DNA from: a virus
Direction: 5' to 3' (one strand)
IMG/VR virus record: IMGVR_UViG_3300031885_000079
Coordinates: 1-29,628 of that record
Length of the DNA stretch: 29,628 nucleotides
Shown here: positions 1 to 27,266 of the stretch, one piece after another
How the letters are laid out: every line of letters starts with the position of its first letter
Numbering within the stretch: the stretch's first letter is position 1
Position numbers and translations under genes: made by a program
Notes under the pieces: generated by a model
Told to the model about the DNA's origin: nothing
Databases searched by the model: none
Seen by the model: the letters and a program-made list of their open reading frames with translations, nothing else

Positions 1-284
1 TCTTTTTTAATTAGCTCATCCTCCATAGATTCCAAATAGGATATGATATGAGGCAATAAGGCGGGAAAATTATTTAATATCGCCTCCTCATTTATATGCT
101 TACTAGGAATGCGAACATATACGCTAACCTTAGCAGTGCTTGCAGCCACCTTCGGATCACGCCTGTATAGGCACTTCACTATCCGAGTACCCGCGATTTC
201 AGCTATCGGAAGCTGCGAATCATAGGGGAGATACTCGCCAAGGACGAAAGTGGTGGCCGGACTGAATTCTAGATTATTGCTCAT
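1..284 (-). CDS. Hypothetical early protein, cut by the window edge
   Basis: The minus-strand frame is open from an ATG at 284 to the left edge, giving 94 residues without a stop, so the C-terminus lies outside the window. The protein begins MSNNLEFSPATTFVLGEY and contains the stretch IAGTRIVKCLYRRDP. It is a mixed soluble sequence with no membrane segment or catalytic motif that I recognise. The start is preceded by GGGAATACAATT, which resembles the leaders of the genes at 667 (AGGAAACACACC) and 1515 (AGGAAATACAAT). Repeat copy R1 lies about 60 bases upstream, as for its neighbours, which suggests the same expression scheme. Function unknown. Confidence 0.7.
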   Translation of the reverse strand, partial: MSNNLEFSPATTFVLGEYLPYDSQLPIAEIAGTRIVKCLYRRDPKVAASTAKVSVYVRIPSKHINEEAILNNFPALLPHIISYLESMEDELIKK

Positions 285-310
285 AATTGTATTCCCATAA
301 TGAATTGAAT

Positions 311-375
311 GATTGAATAATGAATAATGAATTGAAAAGAGCTAGGCACCAGCTAGTGGCACCTATTATATATTA
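311..375 (-). repeat. Intergenic repeat R1 with 9-bp hairpin
   Basis: Copy 1 of a four-copy repeat. It has an ATTCA-rich, start-proximal part and a hairpin at 343-365. On the minus strand the arms are TAGGTGCCA and TGGTGCCTA around a CTAGC loop. All nine pairs form, two of them as G-U pairs that would be C-A mismatches on the plus strand. The hairpin lies between the stop of the 380-667 gene and the start at 284. Confidence 0.75.
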
Positions 376-379
376 CGGG

Positions 380-667
380 TTACTTTGCAATTTGGCAGGG
401 CATCCAGATACCCCTAGTAAACGTTCCCTGCACGTAGTCCGCCAAGGACTGGCGGAAGGGATCCGCTACAAAGGGCTTAGCGAAAAACGAGTCGTTAACC
501 CATGGGGTTAGTATGGGCGTAGTCTTGCCCTTCAGTAGGCTTTTTAAAGCTTCCCGTTCCCATCCACTAGGGCGGGAAGCAATGGCTTTTCGTACAGATC
601 GCTTGAAGGTTTTTTTGGATATTCTGTTCTGTCTGTATGTCTTGCCTTGAATGCGTAAGAGTGCCAT
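380..667 (-). CDS. Hypothetical small basic protein
   Basis: This 95-residue protein starts MALLRIQGKTYRQNRISK. The ATG at 667 is preferred over an upstream in-frame ATG at 745 because it follows AGGAAA at a proper distance, and because the longer start would translate repeat R2. The N-terminal half is very basic, with K/R-rich stretches such as KTFKRSVRKA; the C-terminal half is aromatic and lacks a known motif. The charge would fit nucleic acid or protein binding by an early phage gene, but that is inference only. It sits between hairpin repeats R2 (upstream) and R1 (downstream). Confidence 0.65.
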   Translation of the reverse strand: MALLRIQGKTYRQNRISKKTFKRSVRKAIASRPSGWEREALKSLLKGKTTPILTPWVNDSFFAKPFVADPFRQSLADYVQGTFTRGIWMPCQIAK

Positions 668-681
668 GGTGTGTTTCCTAT

Positions 682-755
682 GATTGAATAATGAATAATT
701 GAATAATGAATTGAAAAGAACTGAGCACTGGCTAGCAGTACCCATTATCTATTAT
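682..755 (-). repeat. Intergenic repeat R2 with 9-bp hairpin
   Basis: Copy 2 of the repeat. The hairpin is at 722-744, with minus-strand arms TGGGTACTG and CAGTGCTCA around a CTAGC loop. All nine positions pair. Relative to R4, one pair has changed on both sides (A-U to G-C) and another has gone from G-U to A-U, so pairing survives sequence change. The stop of the 752-1195 gene overlaps its outer edge, and the start at 667 follows after 55 bases. Confidence 0.75.
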
Positions 756-1195
756 AGCTCAGGTGTTGTGAGCTCGCCAGTGGCGATTCTGTATTTCACC
801 CATGCGGCGTCAGCCACTTTGGCCGCCGCTCTGCTCACCTGTATTGCGTCCCTATCTGCCTGCACCGTCGCCAACCACTCGGCGCGCAGTAATTCTACTG
901 CCTCGGCGGTGATGGTTGGGTCGGTCCTATATCTGAATAATGATTGAAATAACTGATTGAAATATCCGAAAGAACTAGCCACTGGCTGGCGGTGGCTATC
1001 GCACTCAGATATTTCAAGGCGCTTACCAATGGCGAGCCTATACTTCAACCCGGCAGCGTTAGCCACCTCGTTTGCTTGCAGGCGAACCTGTAGCGCCGCG
1101 AGGGACACCTTAGTAGCCGCAATAAACGCGGCATATAGTACTTCGATCCGCAGCTCTGGATCTAACTCATCTAACTGTAAGTATGCACTGTTCAT
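752..1195 (-). CDS. Hypothetical protein, apparent fused tandem duplication
   Basis: This 147-residue protein starts at 1195 behind AAGGGGAAATAAA. Its start overlaps the previous stop as ATGA, so translation is probably coupled. The two halves resemble each other: AANEVANAAGLKYRLAIG-type sequence near residues 40-57 and AAKVADAAWVKYRIATG near residues 122-138. Between them the frame runs through hairpin repeat R3, which elsewhere is non-coding. Where the second copy's start codon should be, 12-15 bases after an AGGA, there is an in-frame ATC (Ile95). The simplest reading is two paralogous genes joined by loss of the first stop and second start. Composition is Ala-rich and helical. No function is recognised. 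Confidence 0.65.
   Translation of the reverse strand: MNSAYLQLDELDPELRIEVLYAAFIAATKVSLAALQVRLQANEVANAAGLKYRLAIGKRLEISECDSHRQPVASSFGYFNQLFQSLFRYRTDPTITAEAVELLRAEWLATVQADRDAIQVSRAAAKVADAAWVKYRIATGELTTPEL
935..1001 (-). repeat. Repeat R3, hairpin copy inside an open frame
   Basis: Copy 3 is the most diverged and lies inside the 752-1195 coding frame. The hairpin is at 976-998, with minus-strand arms TAGCCACCG and CAGTGGCTA around CCAGC. Eight of nine positions pair. Three pairs differ from the other copies but still match, including a G-C to C-G swap. The ATTCA-like A+T-rich segment (935-970) is also recognisable. It seems to be a former intergenic unit captured by the fusion. Confidence 0.65.
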
Positions 1196-1515
1196 TTTAT
1201 TTCCCCTTTAATAGCGGGTTGGATGGGTAGCCAACCCATACGGCCGTTAACCACTCCGTGGTATTGGTGCGAACCATCTGCCCAAACGCGGAGGGCAAAA
1301 CCCACTCCTACGTCGCTAGGCTCTTGGTTCGGATCTAGGTCAACCTCGCCCGCGCGGATGAGGCCCTCGGGCCGCCTCCACACTAGCACAGATATATCGG
1401 CGTCGGTCCAGTCCTCCTCGCTGTCCAGGAATCTCAGGACAGCACGCTTGGAGCTGGCGCACTTAACGCCGAACCGGATTAGCTCCAGTTCGGTGTTGGC
1501 TGTTGAATTGTTCAT
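1192..1515 (-). CDS. Hypothetical small acidic protein
   Basis: This 107-residue protein starts MNNSTANTELELIRFGVK. The ATG at 1515 follows AGGAAATACAAT; a longer in-frame start at 1572 would read through repeat R4 and is rejected. The middle is acidic with several Trp residues (SEEDWTDADISVLVW), and the end is VNGRMGWLPIQPAIKGEIK. There is no membrane segment and no recognised motif. Its stop overlaps the start of the next gene by ATGA, the only boundary in this group without a hairpin repeat, so the pair is probably translationally coupled. Codons are richer in GCG/GCC/GGC than in the virion genes. Function unknown. Confidence 0.65.
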   Translation of the reverse strand: MNNSTANTELELIRFGVKCASSKRAVLRFLDSEEDWTDADISVLVWRRPEGLIRAGEVDLDPNQEPSDVGVGFALRVWADGSHQYHGVVNGRMGWLPIQPAIKGEIK

Positions 1516-1530
1516 ATTGTATTTCCTAGT

Positions 1531-1597
1531 GATTGAATAATGAATGATTGAATACTGAAAAGAACTAGGCACTGGCTAGCAGCACCTATTATATATT
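1531..1597 (-). repeat. Intergenic repeat R4 with 9-bp hairpin
   Basis: Copy 4 has its hairpin at 1566-1588. The minus-strand arms are TAGGTGCTG and CAGTGCCTA around CTAGC, followed by GTTCTTTTC. It lies between the stop of the 1597-1767 gene and the start at 1515, 51 bases away. The moderate stem and interrupted U-run could make a weak terminator or attenuator. A processing or protein-binding site is equally possible. Confidence 0.75.
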
Positions 1598-1767
1598 CAC
1601 ACTGGAAGTTTGCTTCTAGCTTCCAGTACCGCCGCATGCACTGCGGCAGATTGCCTGTCGAACATTGCCAGCTTCTCGGCTGTGGATGCGTCCAACAAGT
1701 ACCAAACCCCGTTCTCGGCGACGAACTTGGCAAGAGCCAAATCCGCTGCTGGTTTTAATATTACCAT
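1597..1767 (-). CDS. Hypothetical 56-residue protein
   Basis: A short minus-strand gene, MVILKPAADLALAKFVAENG through to LEARSKLPV. The start at 1767 follows AAGGGGAATAAA, nearly the same leader as the gene starting at 1195 (AAGGGGAAATAAA). It is the first gene downstream of the predicted promoter at 1816-1844. The sequence is Ala-rich and probably helical, with no recognised motif. A longer overlapping frame in another register (1512-1733) translates the repeat and has no ribosome site, so this frame is chosen. Confidence 0.6.
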   Translation of the reverse strand: MVILKPAADLALAKFVAENGVWYLLDASTAEKLAMFDRQSAAVHAAVLEARSKLPV

Positions 1768-1815
1768 TTTATTCCCCTTAAACTGGAAGCGCCCTATGCC
1801 CTCCCCACTAAGAAA

Positions 1816-1844
1816 ATAGTACCACCTAAGCTAACTAAGCACAA
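1816..1844 (-). promoter_or_regulatory. Likely sigma70-type promoter for the leftward genes
   Basis: On the minus strand, TTGTGC (1844-1839) and TACTAT (1821-1816) are separated by 17 bases, about 50 bases upstream of the ATG at 1767. The -10 box matches the TATAAT consensus at five of six positions; the -35 box keeps TTG. This is the best candidate in the divergent region for driving the five leftward genes from host polymerase. Confidence 0.5.
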
Positions 1845-1855
1845 GCCCTATTTGC

Positions 1856-1970
1856 TTAGATTATTCAATTAAATGCAATTAAATCTAAGATTACTCAAAT
1901 TATCTAACTAATTCTAAGCTAGCCTGCGCTATCTAGATAGCAATAGATAGCTAATAAGAACTATTCTTAT
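1856..1970. promoter_or_regulatory. Palindrome-rich divergent control region
   Basis: This A+T-rich stretch contains three inverted repeats: TTAGATT/AATCTAA arms (1856-1862, 1882-1888) flanking a direct repeat of CAATTAAAT; a perfect 14-base palindrome, GCTATCTAGATAGC (1928-1941); and ATAAGAA-CTA-TTCTTAT (1954-1970), followed by an A-run. Such spacing fits operator sites for dimeric regulators, or part of an origin. No gene on either strand between 1768 and 2203 is supported. Confidence 0.4.
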
Positions 1971-1984
1971 TTAAAAAAATGAAA

Positions 1985-2010
1985 AGACTAAAGACTAAAG
2001 ACTAAAGATA
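1985..2010. repeat. Short tandem repeat, 7-bp unit
   Basis: Three exact copies of GACTAAA (1986-2006) are followed by a degenerate fourth, directly upstream of the terminator-like hairpin at 2017-2034. The function is unknown; slippage of a short A-rich unit is enough to explain it. Confidence 0.6.
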
Positions 2011-2016
2011 AAGGAG

Positions 2017-2034
2017 GGGGCTAAAGCCCCTTTT
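2017..2034 (+). terminator. Terminator-like hairpin, plus strand
   Basis: A GGGGC stem, TAAA loop and GCCCC stem are followed by TTTT. The shape is a compact intrinsic terminator reading rightward. It lies upstream of the virion block, so it would stop plus-strand transcripts starting between about 1850 and 2010, or transcripts antisense to the leftward genes. Attenuation of late transcription is another possibility. Confidence 0.5.
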
Positions 2035-2203
2035 ACAGTACCACTGCCTGTGTATCCTAAGAGACTTATAAAATATTCCTAAACTTTTTTCACATATCTC
2101 CTAATCTAAGCACCCCCATTCTGAACCCTATAATCATTCATTCCTATCTAAGCTTATAATAACCTCATATTAGTAGCCTTTATAGAAGGCAGGAGATATT
2201 TAT

Positions 2204-2815
2204 ATGGGCACTTTATTAGCGGAACTAGGTACTGGGGCAGCTTCCCTTCCGGCCCCTTCATCTCATTATTCCACTGGCATTACATCCAGTGTAGAAGAAA
2301 GAGCAATGAGCCTCTTGGGAGCTGGAATTAAGCAGGAAGCAGTAGCTTCCGCACTAGGTGTCTCTCCTAGCAGAATCACTCAGCTACTATCTGACGAAAC
2401 TTTCGCAGCAGGTGTATCAAAACTAAGATATGATGCACTTCAGAGTCACTCTATTCGCGACTCTAAATATGATAGCTTAGAAGATAGGCTATTAGTGAAG
2501 TTAGAGAATAGCTTGCCGCTAATGATGAAGCCAGAATCTATTCTGAAAGCACTATCTGTGGTTAATGGAGCTAAAAGAAGAGGCTTAGATTCTCCTGAAG
2601 CTGCCGGAGGAGTCACTAATATAGTGAATCTAATGTTACCTGCTGTCATTGCAGAGAAATTCACTGTTAATATAGACAATCAGGTAACTAAGGCAGGAAC
2701 TCAAGATCTGCATACAATGTCTTCAGGTAATCTGCTAAAGCATGTGGAGGCAGCGGAGACAAATAGACTAGCTGTAGCTTCTGCAAGAGCTATAGAATTA
2801 CTTAAGAAATCATAA
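2204..2815 (+). CDS. Putative terminase small subunit
   Basis: This 203-residue protein stands two genes before the large terminase, as small terminase subunits usually do. Residues 30-62 form a helix-turn-helix-like segment (IKQEAVASALGVSPSRITQL), which fits recognition of the packaging site on phage DNA. The middle (about 75-130) is helical and could carry oligomerisation. The start is preceded by GGCAGGAGATATTTAT. The small subunit positions genomic DNA for the large subunit's ATPase and nuclease. The assignment rests on position plus the HTH; the sequence is too divergent to name a subfamily, and a packaging-linked DNA-binding regulator is the alternative. Confidence 0.65.
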   Translation: MGTLLAELGTGAASLPAPSSHYSTGITSSVEERAMSLLGAGIKQEAVASALGVSPSRITQLLSDETFAAGVSKLRYDALQSHSIRDSKYDSLEDRLLVKLENSLPLMMKPESILKALSVVNGAKRRGLDSPEAAGGVTNIVNLMLPAVIAEKFTVNIDNQVTKAGTQDLHTMSSGNLLKHVEAAETNRLAVASARAIELLKKS

Positions 2816-4577: not shown

Positions 4578-4793
4578 ATTACCTCGAGGCGGCGCCGGCA
4601 ATACCGCCTGACCGCGTAGGGGCTGACGCTAGATCACAGGGCCCCGATGTCAAGCGCGTTTTTGCGTGCCTAGCGAAGCGGCTAAGCAAACAACCGCTTT
4701 ACGTTGGGTGATGATCTGGCTAAGCTACCCAAGCAGTCAGCGTTCTTGCCAGAGCTGCCGGACTATCCACTTTAACTAATAGGAATACTAACA
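4578..4793 (+). other. G+C-rich, structure-prone island between terminase and portal
   Basis: The 216 bases after the terminase stop are clearly richer in G+C than the genes on either side. Several stems can be drawn: GGCGG/CCGCC (4588-4611 region), GGGGC/GCCCC (about 4618-4645), GCGCG/TGCGTGC, AAGCGG/CCGCTT (about 4675-4700) and TTGGGT/ACCCAA (about 4704-4732). There are two reading-frame stretches without starts: one from 4568 to about 4711, and one from 4686 to the TAA at 4773, the latter in the terminase register and ending SAFLPELPDYPL. It could be a structured RNA, a degenerate coding insert or a packaging-site element. The portal ribosome site AGGAATACTAACA lies at its right end. Confidence 0.45.
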
Positions 4794-9159: not shown

Positions 9160-9210
9160 GTCCTATAGCTTAGTTATCTCGCTAAGCTATAGGACTTCTC
9201 TTTTTCTTTT
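9160..9210 (+). terminator. Strong intrinsic terminator after capsid gene
   Basis: A perfect 14-bp stem (9160-9173 with 9182-9195, outer bases GTCC/GGAC) surrounds an 8-base loop and is followed by a T-rich run to 9210. It should reduce readthrough from the capsid gene into the tail genes, which fits the high dosage needed for coat protein. Confidence 0.8.
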
Positions 9211-20254: not shown

Positions 20255-22222
20255 ATGGCTAATCCCATACTGAATGCTGCGTCAGGTGCTGCAACAGTTA
20301 ATTACGATAATGTGCAGCAAGTAGATTTCGAAGCTATGAAATCTGATATTGGCGCTGAGATAACTGGAGTAAAGCAAGCTGCCGCTGATTATAAGAATGC
20401 AGCTGCTACTGCCTTAAGTATAACGAATGCTGCTACTGCATCCACTGTATCAGCACTTGATGTTAAAGGCGCCTCCAATGCTATAGTAAAAAGAGCTGCA
20501 GCTAATGCAGATCTAAAGGCTCAGCGCGATACGCTAACTGCTGCCAATGCTATTGGTGGTCAGGATAGACAGCTTAGTCTTCTAGGAGATCTTAAGGCTC
20601 AAGGTGAAGAAGAGGCTAAGTTATTAGCAGAGCGCAAAGCTAGATTCGCTCAAGAGCATACCGGCTATAGTGTGATAGATCTAGTGATCAATGCAGTGCA
20701 GGATATTAAACCCAATGTTGCATTGCAGTCTGTGAAGATGCAAGAACAGCAGACTGCTCAGCAATTAGATTATATGTCTAGCGCTACAACTCAAGCAGCT
20801 CAGACGGCGAATTTAGCTAAGCAGACTCTAACTGATGCTGCTATTGAAGCTAATCTAAATGCTATGGCTGCAGATACTAAGATACTACAAGCTCAAGCTA
20901 GGCTAGCAGGAGCTGCTGCTAATACTCAAGGTATGGCTCAGCTTATGAGTGCTAGCACTGCTGCTCTGGGTGCAGTGAAAGGTGAATATGATATGCAGGT
21001 GGAGGTTGCTGGTCAGCAGGTTAGGATGGCTGAGTTTCAAGCGCAGACTGAAAGTAGGCAGGTTGCTCTAGCAACTAATAAGTTGCAACTAGCTAATCTT
21101 CAGGCTACCTCTGAATTCACAAATAAGGCTACTCAAGTTGCAGCTACTCAGAATGTAGAGAGAGATCGTATGATAGAAGCTACAGCGGCTACATATACTG
21201 AGAACGCTATGATCGGAGCAGCTGCATTAGGACTGCCTAATCCTGATCCTATAGCTCTAGGTATGGCCGTTAGAGGAGGTTCTGGTAAGGATGCTCAGGA
21301 GCGTGCACTGCACCTAGCTACTATAGGCCAGCTGCCCGGTGCTCCAGTAGGTAAGAATTTTGGAGATGCTGTGTTTAGTTATAACGAGCTCTTTCCTAAT
21401 GGCAATATCCCTGAGACTCCCATGACTAATCTTATGCACCATATAATTCAGCGAGAGACTGAGGCTCATGCTCAGGGCACTGTCAATGAGTCAGGTAAGA
21501 GAGTTCCTCCAAAGGCTAGGAATGAGGCAGCTCAGACGGAAGGGCTTAATAATAAAGCTGCTGAGATTATGTCTGTATATGCTTCAGATATTACTCCTGG
21601 AAATCCTTTTGAATCCAAGCCGCTACAAGTATTGGCTCCTTACCTAGCTAATAAGCGCATTCCTTTCTATGATAAGGTGTTAGCTAAGATGCCTAGTCAG
21701 AGTATGGATGCTGCAGAGATGTTGCAGCTAGCTAAGAATGCTATTAGTACAAAGCTCATTACTGCTGAGGAGGCTACTAAGGGTATAGCTGACGTATATA
21801 AATTTGCCGTGGAGCATAATAATACCTCTCAAGGCGGCTTTGCTAGAGTAGGATTACCTAATCAGGAATCTTATATGGTTACTGTACGGAGAGATCCTTC
21901 TATTAGGGAGAGTATCTTTGGAGGGTTCTCAGGTTCTGTATCTTCAGGTATTGTTGGGGCTTTCACGCCAGCATCCTTTATGCTACTTAAAAATACTATA
22001 GGGCCTTCAGTCAGTGAAGGTATTAAGGCCGCAAAGGGAAAGTTCACTGCAGGAGAAGATATACAAGCAGCGGCTGAAGATCGTTTCGCCGGAGGTAAAA
22101 CACTCAGAGTCAATATGGTAGATGAGGTTAGTGTGCAAAATGCACTGACTAAGATACACATGGACAAAGACGTTCCTCCACTTCCAAATAGTTCTAATGA
22201 GGGTACTAGCAATGGCAAGTAG
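20255..22222 (+). CDS. Large internal virion protein (T7 gp15 position)
   Basis: This 655-residue protein is Ala/Gln-rich and strongly helical over its first 370 residues, with long coiled-coil-like runs such as AEFQAQTESRQVALATNKLQ. A more mixed C-terminal part follows. Its order, size class and composition match the T7 gp15 core protein, which with gp16 builds the periplasmic tunnel for DNA. No catalytic motif is visible. The start is preceded by CTCTGGAGAATACC. The C-terminus overlaps the next gene by 11 bases, so the two are probably made in a set ratio. The protein would be packaged in the capsid and ejected ahead of the genome. Confidence 0.65.
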   Translation: MANPILNAASGAATVNYDNVQQVDFEAMKSDIGAEITGVKQAAADYKNAAATALSITNAATASTVSALDVKGASNAIVKRAAANADLKAQRDTLTAANAIGGQDRQLSLLGDLKAQGEEEAKLLAERKARFAQEHTGYSVIDLVINAVQDIKPNVALQSVKMQEQQTAQQLDYMSSATTQAAQTANLAKQTLTDAAIEANLNAMAADTKILQAQARLAGAAANTQGMAQLMSASTAALGAVKGEYDMQVEVAGQQVRMAEFQAQTESRQVALATNKLQLANLQATSEFTNKATQVAATQNVERDRMIEATAATYTENAMIGAAALGLPNPDPIALGMAVRGGSGKDAQERALHLATIGQLPGAPVGKNFGDAVFSYNELFPNGNIPETPMTNLMHHIIQRETEAHAQGTVNESGKRVPPKARNEAAQTEGLNNKAAEIMSVYASDITPGNPFESKPLQVLAPYLANKRIPFYDKVLAKMPSQSMDAAEMLQLAKNAISTKLITAEEATKGIADVYKFAVEHNNTSQGGFARVGLPNQESYMVTVRRDPSIRESIFGGFSGSVSSGIVGAFTPASFMLLKNTIGPSVSEGIKAAKGKFTAGEDIQAAAEDRFAGGKTLRVNMVDEVSVQNALTKIHMDKDVPPLPNSSNEGTSNGK

Positions 22223-25200
22223 CTTAGAGTCAGCCTATGAAGCTTCCTTAGCTTCTTCAAGAAAGTCTATGCCTAGTCACTTCACTGCTGCGGATACTTT
22301 ATCCATAGCAAATGGGAATGAGTCGCTATTAGATAGTGCAGCTTCTACTATATCTAACATACCTTCATTCATATTTACCAGTATTGTCTCTGGAGCCAAT
22401 GCTCTATATAATATCCCTACTGATATTGGCAATGCCTTCGGTGGAGATTTCGAACGTAGTAAGACTGAAGATGTTATTACCAGTCTTGATTCTGATCTTG
22501 GCGCTTATTACTCTCAGCACAAGAAGAGTACAGATCTTGCTGGATTCTTAGTGAGCTCTATAGCTCCTGGGACAGTTGGCATTAAAGTACTCAATGCAGG
22601 GCAGGCTAGTCTTAGAGGAGTTATAGCTTCTGGCAAGTTCGGAAGTAATATGGGAAAAGCATTAGGGCTACTTGCTCCAGATAAGGAAGCTGGATTGCTT
22701 AGAGCTATAGAAGCAGTAGCCACTAATAGCGCACCTGCCAATCTGATATCTAGGAATGGTCTGCGCGCTATGGCTAGTGGATTAGGTCAAGGTACTCTGG
22801 AAGCTTTAGCATTTGAAACTGCTGTTAGTGCTACCTTATTTAAGTCTCCTATCCTAGAGAATCAGGACATGGGAGACTTCGTAACTAACGTAGCTTTTGG
22901 CGCTGGTATCTTTGGAATAGTCAGTGGCGGTATCAATGCAGTGAAATTGAAATACGCTATATCCAATGCTGCGGATACTGCTGCATTAGAAGCTAATGTA
23001 TTTAAGCACCAGAGAGACGTTAGTCCTGCCACTGCACCTTCAGATAACTTAGCATTGGTCTATGAGCAGCGTGCATATATTCCTGACGTACCTGAGGAGT
23101 TACATCCTAGTCGCTATCAGTATCTAGCAACAGCCAGAGAGAAGTTAATTAAGAATCTGGATAATGAGGCTAAGACTGTTATGCAGAGATTAACTAATGG
23201 AGATCTGGAGACTGCTTATGCTATGCATAGAAATCTGAAGATGGCACCTAAGGACTTTCAGCAAGGTACTGTGCTAGCTCTTGATGAGATAGTGCGAGTC
23301 ACTGAGAATTCTAAGCTAGGTGCTAGGTTTGATGTACTGCACGGAAAGGTATTAGATGGCAAGGCTAGTCTTAAGGAAGTAGATGAGTTCATGAACTTAG
23401 GAGTTAGTACTAAGTATGTTCGCATGTTTGGTGAAGGTGAAGGTACCATGACTTCTACTAAGCCTACTACCCTATACTTGTCTGATACTCTAAAGGCGGG
23501 CGAGAAAGTTACCATATCCCCTGTCGGAGTTAAGGCAGGAGCTCTGGATTACAGATTCACGCAGACTCCTAACTTTCCTATGTCTGTTGCAGCTAGCAAA
23601 CTTACTGTTCCTGCTACTCACTGGAATATTATGAAGGCTACTGCGTTAGAAACTAATGCTAGATATGGCTGGGTAAGTAAGCTGCCTAAGTTCACTCCTA
23701 ATGAAAAAGCTCCGCTGGTAGTGGACATCAATGATATTCCTATGCTGGAGAAAGTAGTTAGGGATGTTACTGATCCTGATATGCTTGAGCATGTGCGACT
23801 AGCTGGAGTAGAAGGTAAGTCTGCTGTAGCAATCACTGGAGATCTTACTGATTTAGTTATAGCTCAGAAGCTGAAGGTAGCTAATGAGTTACTGAAGCAG
23901 ACTGGAGGGGCACTTAAGACTCAGGAAGAGATAGCGGCAATAGTTAATATGCGCTCCAGTGCATTATCTGGAATATTAGTAAGAGATCCTATTAGGGAAA
24001 TCAATAGCGCTGACGCCTTTGCATTGCAGCATCATGCTGAACAGTATACTAGGAAGCTTGTAGCTCAAGGTGACTGGGACGAGGCTAAGGGCTTAGTGGA
24101 TATACATAATGTTCCTCATACTCTCAAGCTTACTTATAACTTGACTCCTACAGGTAGACTACCATTTCAAGGAATCAATAACTTCGTAGTTGAGAATATG
24201 GTTATCATTAAGCAGCAGCAGAAACTATATCAGGAAGGTGTAGATAAGGCTGTAAGTACTGCATTACCTAAAGGTATCTATGATCAGCTAGAACCTATAG
24301 ATAGTGGAACAGTCCTTTCTAAAGCTGTACCTAGTGGGGCTGGGCATAGTTTTACAGGCGGAGCTAATGGAGATTTTGGAGCTCTAGCAAGTAGTGTCCA
24401 GAGTATAGGTGCAGCAGTTACTAGAGCTGAAGCACTTGCTAAGGGAGCTGTTAGAGATGTGCTAACTCCTTTGTTAATTAAGCTTGCAGCTAATCAGAAG
24501 GCTGCTATTGAATGGAGTACGCTTAAGGCTACGGTCCGTAGTATTGAAGGAGAGTATGGACTTAATAAAGCTGGGGATGCACTGGAGCCGCTGCTTATAG
24601 TTAGGTGGCTGAAGAAAGTGGATGAGGCTAATGCTGCTGGCAAGAGGCCACCTAATCGTCCTAATCTATCTAATCCTGCTATGCCACCTAGATTGGAATT
24701 AGTATCCGATGAAGTTAGGAAACTTGCTGCTGCGCATATTGAGATAAATGGTAGTCGCACTATTAAGCAAGCCGGAATACGATCTGCGCAAGGAGCTGAG
24801 TTTAACAGGGCACCTGACGTATTCTATCCTATCCCTGTAGATGAGAAGGCATTTCCATTCTTTGCTACAGTAAGAGATAACAGTGTCACTAGTGGTAACC
24901 ATACTAGTAGGCTCTATGCTACTACTCCAGAAGAACTTCAAGGAATGATAAATAAGCTTAAGGATATTCCTCACCTTGTCATTAAGACTAAGGGTGAGAT
25001 TGAAGCTGACTTCAGAGCTGAAGGTATATGGGATTATGAGAAGTCTCTTAACTCTAACTACATGGACACCATGCTGAAAAGGAAAGGTATTAGTGCTCCT
25101 TATCTAGTAGATACAGATGTTAATAAGATCACTGCCGATATGCTGAACTGGCATTTAGATAGAGAGTCTGGACTGGTACGGGAAGCTATACTTGCTAAGT

Positions 25201-27215
25201 ATGAAGTTCCATTTGAAGAGCTGAAGAGGCTAGGCAATGAGTATAATAACATTGCCACTTCTAAGTTCGGAGCTAAGACTACTATAGAGTCTATCAGCGC
25301 TGTTAAAGATAATCCATTTGCAGATTACATTAAGACTGCACTTGCGCTTAAGAAGGATGCTGATTATCCATGGTGGGTGAATGCTAATAGGACTCTGGAT
25401 CAGAAGGTTACTGATGTGCTTAAGCGAGTTAGCGCTATCGTAGATACTGCTAGATCTGGACCTGAACTTGCTAAAGCTAATGAGTTACTGAAGCAAGCTG
25501 GGTATAAAGGAGGTGCATACGATGAGGAGATGAGTATCTTTGCTAACCTTCAGGCTGACAGAGGTGCACTTACTGCTGTAGTTCAGAAGGCTAATAGTGT
25601 ACTAGCTGCCGTAGTAATACGTATGGATTTTCTTAATGCTCTTACCAATGCTGTATCAGCTAATGTATTATTAGGAGCTGAGACTGCTAGCCTCACTAGA
25701 CTTATCAATAGTGGTGGCGCTGGGGCTGTTAATGATTTCAATGCTCTTACTAGGATTAATGTACCTGGCACTGATAAGACTATCTTTGCTCCGCATAAGT
25801 TAATAGCTACTTCTATGAAGAACTTCCATAGTGGCGATCCTGCAATGAAGAAGTTCTATAAGGATCACGGATTCAGTACTGGCATTGCTGATCAGTGTAG
25901 GGATGCAGTTAGTGCATTAGCTTATGACGGTAGAGAGAGCGTAGTTAGCTGGAGCACTAGAGTGGATAAGGTGCAAGCTGGGTTAAGGGAGCTGGCTAAT
26001 AAAGGTGAGAAGTGGACAGGTAATAGGTTAGCTGAAGAGTTCAATAGATTTGTAGCTGCTGATGTTATGAGGCAGATGACTGATGTAGCTATAGCTAAAA
26101 ATCTAATGACTCCTAAGCAAGCTATATCTTATATGAATACCTTTGTTAATAGGACTCAAGGTAACTATCTAGCTAGCCAAAGACCTATGATGTTTCAAGG
26201 GCCTATTGGTAAATCTATTGGGCTATTCCAGACCTATCAGTTCAATTTAATACAGCAACTACTTCGGCATGTAGGTGAAGGGCCTGCTAAAGATACTATG
26301 ACATTGTTAGGGCTACAAGGTACTATTCACGGAATGAATGGCTTGCCTGGATTCAGTGCTATCAATACTCATATCCTTGGAACTGCTAGCGGTAATACTG
26401 AGCATAAGGATGCGTATACAGAAACATACAGAGCTGCTGGGCATGAAGCAGGTGACTGGTTGTTATATGGTATGGCCAGTAACATGATGCTATTGCCTGA
26501 GCTTAAAGTGAATCTATATACTAGGGGAGATATTAACCCTAGGCACGTATCTATAGTTCCTACTAATCCTGCCGATGTTCCTATAGTTGCTGCCACTGCT
26601 AAGGTGTTTGCTAATATATTCAATACCGCTGATAAGCTGGGGGCTGGAGGTGATGTAGCTGCTACTATACTTCAGGGCATTGAGCATAATGGATTATCAA
26701 GACCTCTTGCAGGATTAGCTCAGACTCTAGCAGGGCTAACTAATGTAGAGCAGGCTAGTTACTCCACTACTAACTCTGGTAATCTGATTGCGGCTAATGA
26801 TCTATTTAGTTTAGCTAATCTCGGTAGGATTGCAGGAGGTAAGCCACTAGATGAAGCTGTAGCTATGGATCTTATGTATAGGAATAAGGCTTATGCTGCT
26901 GTAGATTCTGATAGGAGGGATGGTCTAGGCTCTGCTATTAAAGCTAGCATGATAGGTGGGGGTGTGCCGAAAGCTGAGGATATAGAGAAGTTTGCTGAGC
27001 AGTATGCTAAGTATGGCGGGAAGCAGAAGCAGTTTAATCAGTGGTTCGGGAACTTATATAAGGAAGCGAACACTGCTCAAGCTAATGCTATTAAGAATGG
27101 ACTGAGTACTCCGTATGCTAGAAGTATGCAGGTTATCATGGGAGGTAAGGATCTAGGTGATTTTAGTGGCAGTGAAATGGTAGCGCCGGAGAGTAGTAAT
27201 AGTCTGGAGCAATAA
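22212..27215 (+). CDS. Giant internal virion / ejection protein (T7 gp16 position)
   Basis: This 1667-residue protein is the largest and last of the virion block. The ATG at 22212 is preferred over one at 22197 because GAGGG lies eight bases upstream. The N-terminal 260 residues have three hydrophobic stretches: IPSFIFTSIVSGANALYNIP, FLVSSIAPGTVGIKVL and FVTNVAFGAGIFGIVSGG. The centre is helical and charged. The C-terminal part contains FVNRTQGNYLASQRPMMFQG and GLFQTYQFNLIQQLLRHVGE, seen by me as typical of large podovirus ejection proteins. Unlike T7 gp16, no transglycosylase-type ES-G motif is seen at the N-terminus. It probably spans the inner membrane and helps pull DNA in. Virion RNA polymerase was considered, but no polymerase motif was found. 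Confidence 0.7.
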   Translation: MASSLESAYEASLASSRKSMPSHFTAADTLSIANGNESLLDSAASTISNIPSFIFTSIVSGANALYNIPTDIGNAFGGDFERSKTEDVITSLDSDLGAYYSQHKKSTDLAGFLVSSIAPGTVGIKVLNAGQASLRGVIASGKFGSNMGKALGLLAPDKEAGLLRAIEAVATNSAPANLISRNGLRAMASGLGQGTLEALAFETAVSATLFKSPILENQDMGDFVTNVAFGAGIFGIVSGGINAVKLKYAISNAADTAALEANVFKHQRDVSPATAPSDNLALVYEQRAYIPDVPEELHPSRYQYLATAREKLIKNLDNEAKTVMQRLTNGDLETAYAMHRNLKMAPKDFQQGTVLALDEIVRVTENSKLGARFDVLHGKVLDGKASLKEVDEFMNLGVSTKYVRMFGEGEGTMTSTKPTTLYLSDTLKAGEKVTISPVGVKAGALDYRFTQTPNFPMSVAASKLTVPATHWNIMKATALETNARYGWVSKLPKFTPNEKAPLVVDINDIPMLEKVVRDVTDPDMLEHVRLAGVEGKSAVAITGDLTDLVIAQKLKVANELLKQTGGALKTQEEIAAIVNMRSSALSGILVRDPIREINSADAFALQHHAEQYTRKLVAQGDWDEAKGLVDIHNVPHTLKLTYNLTPTGRLPFQGINNFVVENMVIIKQQQKLYQEGVDKAVSTALPKGIYDQLEPIDSGTVLSKAVPSGAGHSFTGGANGDFGALASSVQSIGAAVTRAEALAKGAVRDVLTPLLIKLAANQKAAIEWSTLKATVRSIEGEYGLNKAGDALEPLLIVRWLKKVDEANAAGKRPPNRPNLSNPAMPPRLELVSDEVRKLAAAHIEINGSRTIKQAGIRSAQGAEFNRAPDVFYPIPVDEKAFPFFATVRDNSVTSGNHTSRLYATTPEELQGMINKLKDIPHLVIKTKGEIEADFRAEGIWDYEKSLNSNYMDTMLKRKGISAPYLVDTDVNKITADMLNWHLDRESGLVREAILAKYEVPFEELKRLGNEYNNIATSKFGAKTTIESISAVKDNPFADYIKTALALKKDADYPWWVNANRTLDQKVTDVLKRVSAIVDTARSGPELAKANELLKQAGYKGGAYDEEMSIFANLQADRGALTAVVQKANSVLAAVVIRMDFLNALTNAVSANVLLGAETASLTRLINSGGAGAVNDFNALTRINVPGTDKTIFAPHKLIATSMKNFHSGDPAMKKFYKDHGFSTGIADQCRDAVSALAYDGRESVVSWSTRVDKVQAGLRELANKGEKWTGNRLAEEFNRFVAADVMRQMTDVAIAKNLMTPKQAISYMNTFVNRTQGNYLASQRPMMFQGPIGKSIGLFQTYQFNLIQQLLRHVGEGPAKDTMTLLGLQGTIHGMNGLPGFSAINTHILGTASGNTEHKDAYTETYRAAGHEAGDWLLYGMASNMMLLPELKVNLYTRGDINPRHVSIVPTNPADVPIVAATAKVFANIFNTADKLGAGGDVAATILQGIEHNGLSRPLAGLAQTLAGLTNVEQASYSTTNSGNLIAANDLFSLANLGRIAGGKPLDEAVAMDLMYRNKAYAAVDSDRRDGLGSAIKASMIGGGVPKAEDIEKFAEQYAKYGGKQKQFNQWFGNLYKEANTAQANAIKNGLSTPYARSMQVIMGGKDLGDFSGSEMVAPESSNSLEQ

Positions 27216-27228
27216 GCAGTAAGCAAAA

Positions 27229-27266
27229 AAAAGGCCTATTAGAGAATATCTAGTAGGCCTTTTGTC
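27229..27266. terminator. Bidirectional intrinsic terminator between converging units
   Basis: AAAAGGCCTA (27229-27238) pairs perfectly with TAGGCCTTTT (27254-27263). Five more pairs (one G-U) close a GAATA loop. Runs of A before and T after provide U-tracts for transcripts from both sides. It ends the virion block and the leftward nucleotide-metabolism genes. Confidence 0.9.

Follow-up and report, generated by a model that had tools for sequence, protein, structure and literature searches.

A short intergenic hairpin is repeated four times in the leftward gene cluster at the left end of an uncultured viral contig, with its pairing kept through compensatory changes, its place held behind the stop codon of one small gene and ahead of the following gene's start codon, and one copy enclosed by a tandem duplication of the gene termed here g2; the small genes around it have turned over between the contig and a close relative, in which a fifth copy occurs. 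The window, i.e. the whole stretch of DNA analysed, is this entire contig of 29,628 bases and is probably a genome fragment. We tentatively read the hairpin as intercistronic mRNA punctuation, either a leaky terminator or a processing or 3'-end element. On this reading, in the leftward mRNA the hairpin would lie directly behind the stop codon of a small gene and ahead of an unstructured leader that carries a ribosome-binding site for the gene that follows; it would protect the upstream message, and that gene would be translated from its own G-free leader. Hairpin and leader would have been copied as a unit with the insertion or duplication of small ORFan genes in an interval set by two fixed anchors: on one side the leader of the first leftward gene, on the other the left-end gene, lg. 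Phages gain and lose tiny genes constantly, and a hairpin-leader unit copied with them would supply ready-made expression signals; the presence of four copies within one genome makes for easy testing with reporters.

The hairpin copies and their genomic setting

The window contains a rightward operon for packaging, head and tail (terS-like, terL, portal, major head protein and lysin genes); its right end is occupied by leftward metabolic genes and its left end by the short leftward cluster. Its large terminase is only 23-36% identical to those of the nearest named phages (Aeromonas phage P5, EBPR podovirus 3, Pseudomonas phages 119X and PaP2, and Polaromonas phage Tiera), and two uncultured contigs are close to it, L004 (terminase 92% identical) and L005 (99%), the latter beginning within terL. 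Strong palindromic terminators are found at 9160-9195, downstream of the gene for the major head protein, and at 27229-27263, between converging operons. The structural operon closes with a 1672-residue protein (22197-27215, plus strand) that lacks a Pfam match and is possibly an internal virion protein. The divergent intergenic region at 2017-2132, which is conserved with L004 and partly with L010, L014, L018 and L029, contains a GGGGCTAAAGCCCC hairpin with a T-tail as well as CTAAAGA repeats, and is probably the control region for the leftward and rightward operons.

Table 1. Features of the leftward cluster in the window, in the order of leftward reading
Feature	Position	Strand	Description
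g4	1597..1767	minus	56-aa ORFan that opens the leftward cluster; stop codon 8 nt before R4
R4 hairpin	1566..1588	minus	TAGGTGCTG-CTAGC-CAGTGCCTA; 9 bp, loop of 5
R4 tail and leader	1516..1565	minus	Tail GTTCTTTTC, ATTCA-rich leader, Shine-Dalgarno-like AGGAAA ahead of g3 (ATG 1515-1513)
g3	1192..1515	minus	107-aa ORFan; ATGA overlap with the start of g2
g2	752..1195	minus	147-aa ORF; fused tandem duplicates g2a and g2b enclosing R3
R3 hairpin	976..998	minus	Degenerate; in frame within ORF 752-1195, between g2a and g2b
R2 hairpin	722..744	minus	TGGGTACTG-CTAGC-CAGTGCTCA
R2 tail and leader	668..721	minus	Tail, G-poor leader, AGGAAA ahead of g1 (ATG 667-665)
g1	380..667	minus	95-aa ORFan
R1 hairpin	343..365	minus	TAGGTGCCA-CTAGC-TGGTGCCTA
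R1 tail and leader	285..342	minus	Tail, G-poor ATTCA leader, GGGAA ahead of lg (ATG 284-282)
lg	1..284	minus	N-terminal part of the left-end gene

The four stems lie exactly where a preliminary description of this DNA had placed them (Table 1), and its account of a minus-strand stem of 9 bp closed by a 5-base loop holds for R1, R2 and R4, each with the loop CTAGC. R3 (loop CCAGC) departs from it by a single C-A mismatch at the eighth pair on that strand and forms all nine pairs only in plus-strand RNA (-13.9 kcal/mol). Minus-strand folding energies for the three other copies are -10 to -13 kcal/mol, and z-scores of the hairpins against shuffled sequence are modest (-1.4 to -2.0); the whole intergenic stretches that contain a hairpin fold with z of -1.1 to -2.1, which is not beyond the other intergenic stretches of this phage. 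Since the window holds other hairpins of nine pairs and a 5-base loop, four on the minus strand and ten on the plus strand, a lone hairpin has little meaning, and it is the repeated, covarying set that counts. The copies have covariance-model E-values of 1e-8 to 1e-11; they are therefore homologous, and their repetition is not a matter of chance.

Each intact copy is closely tied to the genes on either side. The stem follows the stop codon after 14 nt at R1, 7 nt at R2, 8 nt at R4 and 14 nt in the L004 copy, and the next start codon follows the stem after a further 58, 54, 50 and 41 nt, respectively, where a spacing of 51-63 bases had been claimed for the window copies. In R1, R2 and R4 this interval consists of a U-rich tail immediately 3' of the stem and then an almost G-free, ATTCA-rich leader, which contains UC and might conceivably serve for the loading of Rho.

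Pairing in the stem and the folding molecule

Over the five copies, i.e. the four in the window and that in L004, 44 of 45 pairs are kept. Four of the nine stem pairs have changed on both sides, as the preliminary description had noted for the stem, three have changed on one side by way of G-U, and two are invariant; R3 displays a double transversion from G-C to C-G. In a pairing test none of 500 shuffles was as good as the observed arrangement, and sliding the partners abolished the signal. A stricter, branch-wise mutation null, which scatters the inferred substitutions randomly on each branch and for which ancestor and tree were a parsimony choice, returned P values of 0.0004, 0.0019 and 0.018 with 67%, 80% and 100% transitions, respectively; about 6-9 broken pairs would be expected under neutrality, and one is observed. 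By these comparisons the structure is preserved beyond chance, albeit modestly, five copies in two phages limiting the covariation that can be seen. The earlier proposal of a repeated intergenic element that preserves pairing rather than stem sequence, in an orientation matching the leftward genes, is supported.

These figures also bear on the idea that the hairpins are relics without present function, arising by tandem duplication of the leader and by recombination, in which pairing persists through shortness of time or through exchange between copies. Similarity between the copies across the entire module is 56-82%, the ATTCA repeat of the leader is prone to slippage, the mutation null reaches its highest P value when all changes are transitions, and the L004 copy is not nearest to R1, as expected under exchange; the shortfall of broken pairs and the double transversion in R3 nevertheless argue against such a history, which we regard as distinctly unlikely.

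As to the molecule that folds, the preliminary description had named the RNA of the leftward genes on the strength of G-U pairs. About three independent G-U events agree with the minus strand and one with the opposite strand, but R3 provides a counterexample and, taken by itself, this evidence falls short of significance; we take it as suggestive only. A kissing-loop interaction through a GCTAGC palindrome was considered and dropped, as R1 and R3 do not have the palindrome. Tentatively we infer RNA, rather than DNA, to be the folding molecule. That the arms differ within one genome whilst loop and tail are nearly constant favours a structure over a DNA operator more strongly than the G-U pairs do. 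An inverted-repeat operator directly behind a -10-like hexamer would equip every cassette with a repressed promoter of its own, as has been proposed for the extended start-associated sequences (ESAS) found in mycobacteriophages of cluster K (Pope et al. 2011, PMC3203893; PMC11373665). Such a hexamer does stand immediately 5' of the repeat in four of the five copies (TATAAT at R1, R4 and L004, GATAAT at R2), and the Adephagia ESAS unite SigA-like promoters with an inverted repeat (PMC11373665). However, only R2 has a properly spaced -35, which is weak, the number of promoter-like sites is below that in shuffled sequence, and a single repressor would hardly tolerate half-sites that differ within one genome and yet remain complementary, so that we consider an operator unlikely.

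If the hairpin is an RNA structure, the loop CTAGC and the tail AGTTCTTTT are its nearly fixed parts (four changes in 70 cells), next to a stem that varies in sequence with its pairing kept. This pattern, along with the similar distance to each start codon, is what would be expected if a phage or host protein recognised loop and tail and controlled translation or stability of the downstream gene, the cluster forming a small regulon. We rate this as somewhat unlikely, given that 41-58 nt separate the end of the stem from the downstream start codon, with the ribosome-binding site left uncovered, that all copies, five only, lie in one cluster, and that no candidate protein emerged. The more specific proposal of a phage-specific RNA regulon, with one protein reading the conserved loop and tail of a hairpin that travels with captured small genes, is very doubtful; if true, it would place newcomer genes under shared post-transcriptional control.

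Gene turnover and distribution of the element

Alignment of the window with L004 runs from the structural genes as far as the first leftward gene's start codon and picks up once more at the hairpin that precedes lg. Between these anchors L004 has a single gene (g5, 63 aa) and a single hairpin, whereas the window has g4, g3, the duplicated g2 and g1 with four hairpins, and the first leftward genes of the two, g4 and g5, are without homology. No homologues of g1, g2, g3, g4 or g5 were found among the related loci compared; searches for relatives of g3 in viral contigs, for protein matches to lg, g1 and g3 in a phage collection, and for DNA matches to window positions 1-2400 in the same collection also returned none. 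The left-end gene lg is conserved in more than 10 relatives. The L004 hairpin is closest to R4 and not to its positional partner, R1, and therefore copies have been exchanged or moved.

Within the window R3 is the most diverged copy, with no stop codon before it and, as previously described, no start codon after it; this former intergenic hairpin and its leader are now part of the reading frame. The two halves of the surrounding ORF, g2a and g2b, are about 40% identical; 42 residues align, and none of 300 shuffles was as good. Because the halves are duplicates, the placement of R3 inside the ORF is explained by tandem duplication followed by loss of one stop and one start codon. R3 also has an extra outer stem, GAAATATC...GGATATTTC (957-1017), that is not present in the other copies.

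A covariance model built on the four window copies located one further intact copy among the relatives, a fully paired hairpin before the lg orthologue of L004, and none in the other related loci or in 14 other relatives searched over their full records. A lack of copies in related phages, which the preliminary description had named as evidence against the element, thus applies to every relative but the closest, L004. In viral contigs a strict pattern gave no matches, a second pattern matched L004 only, a looser one matched L004 and two chance coding sites with unpaired arms, and a tail-plus-leader pattern matched 20 further contigs, in none of which was the stem found; a strict pattern gave no matches in genome contigs. 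The earlier failure to match the element to a known family agrees with the covariance models of Rfam 15, which gave no matches at gathering score, the sole hits being microRNA hits at R3, far under threshold. In more distant relatives the stretch before lg often contains hairpins of unrelated sequence, or is absent; these hairpins were rejected as homologues, being unrelated in sequence and no stronger than other intergenic stretches. A leader before lg is common to L018 (approximately 331-450) and L029/L044, and comprises one long hairpin, another that is small and what looks like a closing stem (TTTAATGACTTAACA...TAAGTTAAGA...AATAACCAGCTAA), with z approximately -2.6 to -2.9.

Elsewhere in the window, the 216-nt noncoding stretch between terL and portal (4578-4793, plus strand; G+C 0.55 vs 0.43) folds into a long rod of -84.6 kcal/mol, with z of -3.4 and none of 200 shuffles as good. 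Its identity is 92% in L004 and 99% in L005, and L008/L009, L013 and L023 carry diverged counterparts at the corresponding position, with GTCAAG and GCGNAGCG in common. It has no Rfam match, and the L013 counterpart folds no better than shuffled sequence. We regard this stretch as a candidate for an unknown structured RNA; it may be a more interesting find than the hairpins.

Terminator-like features and comparison with known systems

The element, which is real, had been put forward as an RNA control element; attenuator, processing site and protein-binding site, the three functions then offered, are candidate functions. Like intrinsic (Rho-independent) terminators, the hairpin is placed behind a stop codon and carries a U-rich tail. 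Unlike them, its U-tract is interrupted and begins with G, and its stem is weak and contains G-U pairs. As to the terminator hallmark of a G+C-rich stem with an immediate U-tract, R1, R2 and R4 agree with a loose consensus; a weighted terminator score is -5 to -30 for all copies and +18 to +26 for three clear terminators of the same phage. A strong terminator is therefore unlikely. The punctuation reading, in which termination would be leaky or the hairpin would mark a processed or 3' end, has as counterpoints these negative scores, the ordinary intergenic z-scores, the plus-strand pairing of R3, the restriction to two phages with five copies between them, and the unrelated folds, or absence, of the stretch before lg in more distant relatives.

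The T7 gene 10 leader has a 5' hairpin, then an AU-rich leader and then a Shine-Dalgarno sequence, and the order of hairpin, unstructured leader and Shine-Dalgarno is the same here. By analogy, each copy might mark a start site for a phage single-subunit RNA polymerase, with TATAATA before and GG after the start and the hairpin forming the 5' end of the transcript; GG does come right after an AT-rich block and is followed by the hairpin, the AU-rich leader and the Shine-Dalgarno sequence. However, unlike the T7 leader, the hairpin stands behind a stop codon within a gene cluster, the motif TATAATAGG occurs nowhere else in the window, and a search for PF00940 polymerases, positive for the T7 control, found none in the window and 12 related records (some of 41-47 kb; the window and L004 are fragments). 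With no such polymerase in 13 records a T7-type promoter was rejected, and we find a polymerase start site scarcely credible.

Two known systems are closer in kind. Promoter-early stem-loops (PeSL) are stem-loop cassettes among the small ORFs of hypervariable phage regions, where they are associated with gene shuffling, and consist of a stem-loop terminator coupled to an early promoter. The present element shares the cassette arrangement between small ORFs, and different genes lie between the same anchors in the window and L004. It differs in having no promoter behind the hairpin (on the minus strand, the interval from stem to start codon showed no sigma-70-like site at any copy, and at none was a terminator coupled to an early promoter before the next gene) and in its poor terminator score. 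The phage group is also unrelated, PeSL being known from T4-type phages (Arbiol et al. 2010; Comeau et al. 2014, as cited in PMC4503421).

The likeness to ESAS lies in a short, imperfect inverted repeat, intergenic, in one orientation and upstream of the start codons of small non-structural genes, that is confined to a few related phages. In ESAS, however, the arms measure 17 bp and adjoin a 13-bp SAS located at the ribosome-binding site, and SigA-like promoters accompany a single arm consensus per genome, whereas here the arms are of 9 bp and vary within the genome, the -35 is inconsistent, and 17-bp inverted repeats with SigA-like -35 and -10 were not found at the copies. The 13-bp SAS (GGGATAGGAGCCC) is likewise absent from the 3-7 bp before the start codons, the leaders ending in sequences of the AGGAAA/GGGAA type. 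The element thus resembles PeSL and ESAS in its place and in its association with gene shuffling, and is a member of neither; with five copies in two phages it is a small case, yet it provides a further example beside these two, to which it is unrelated in sequence.
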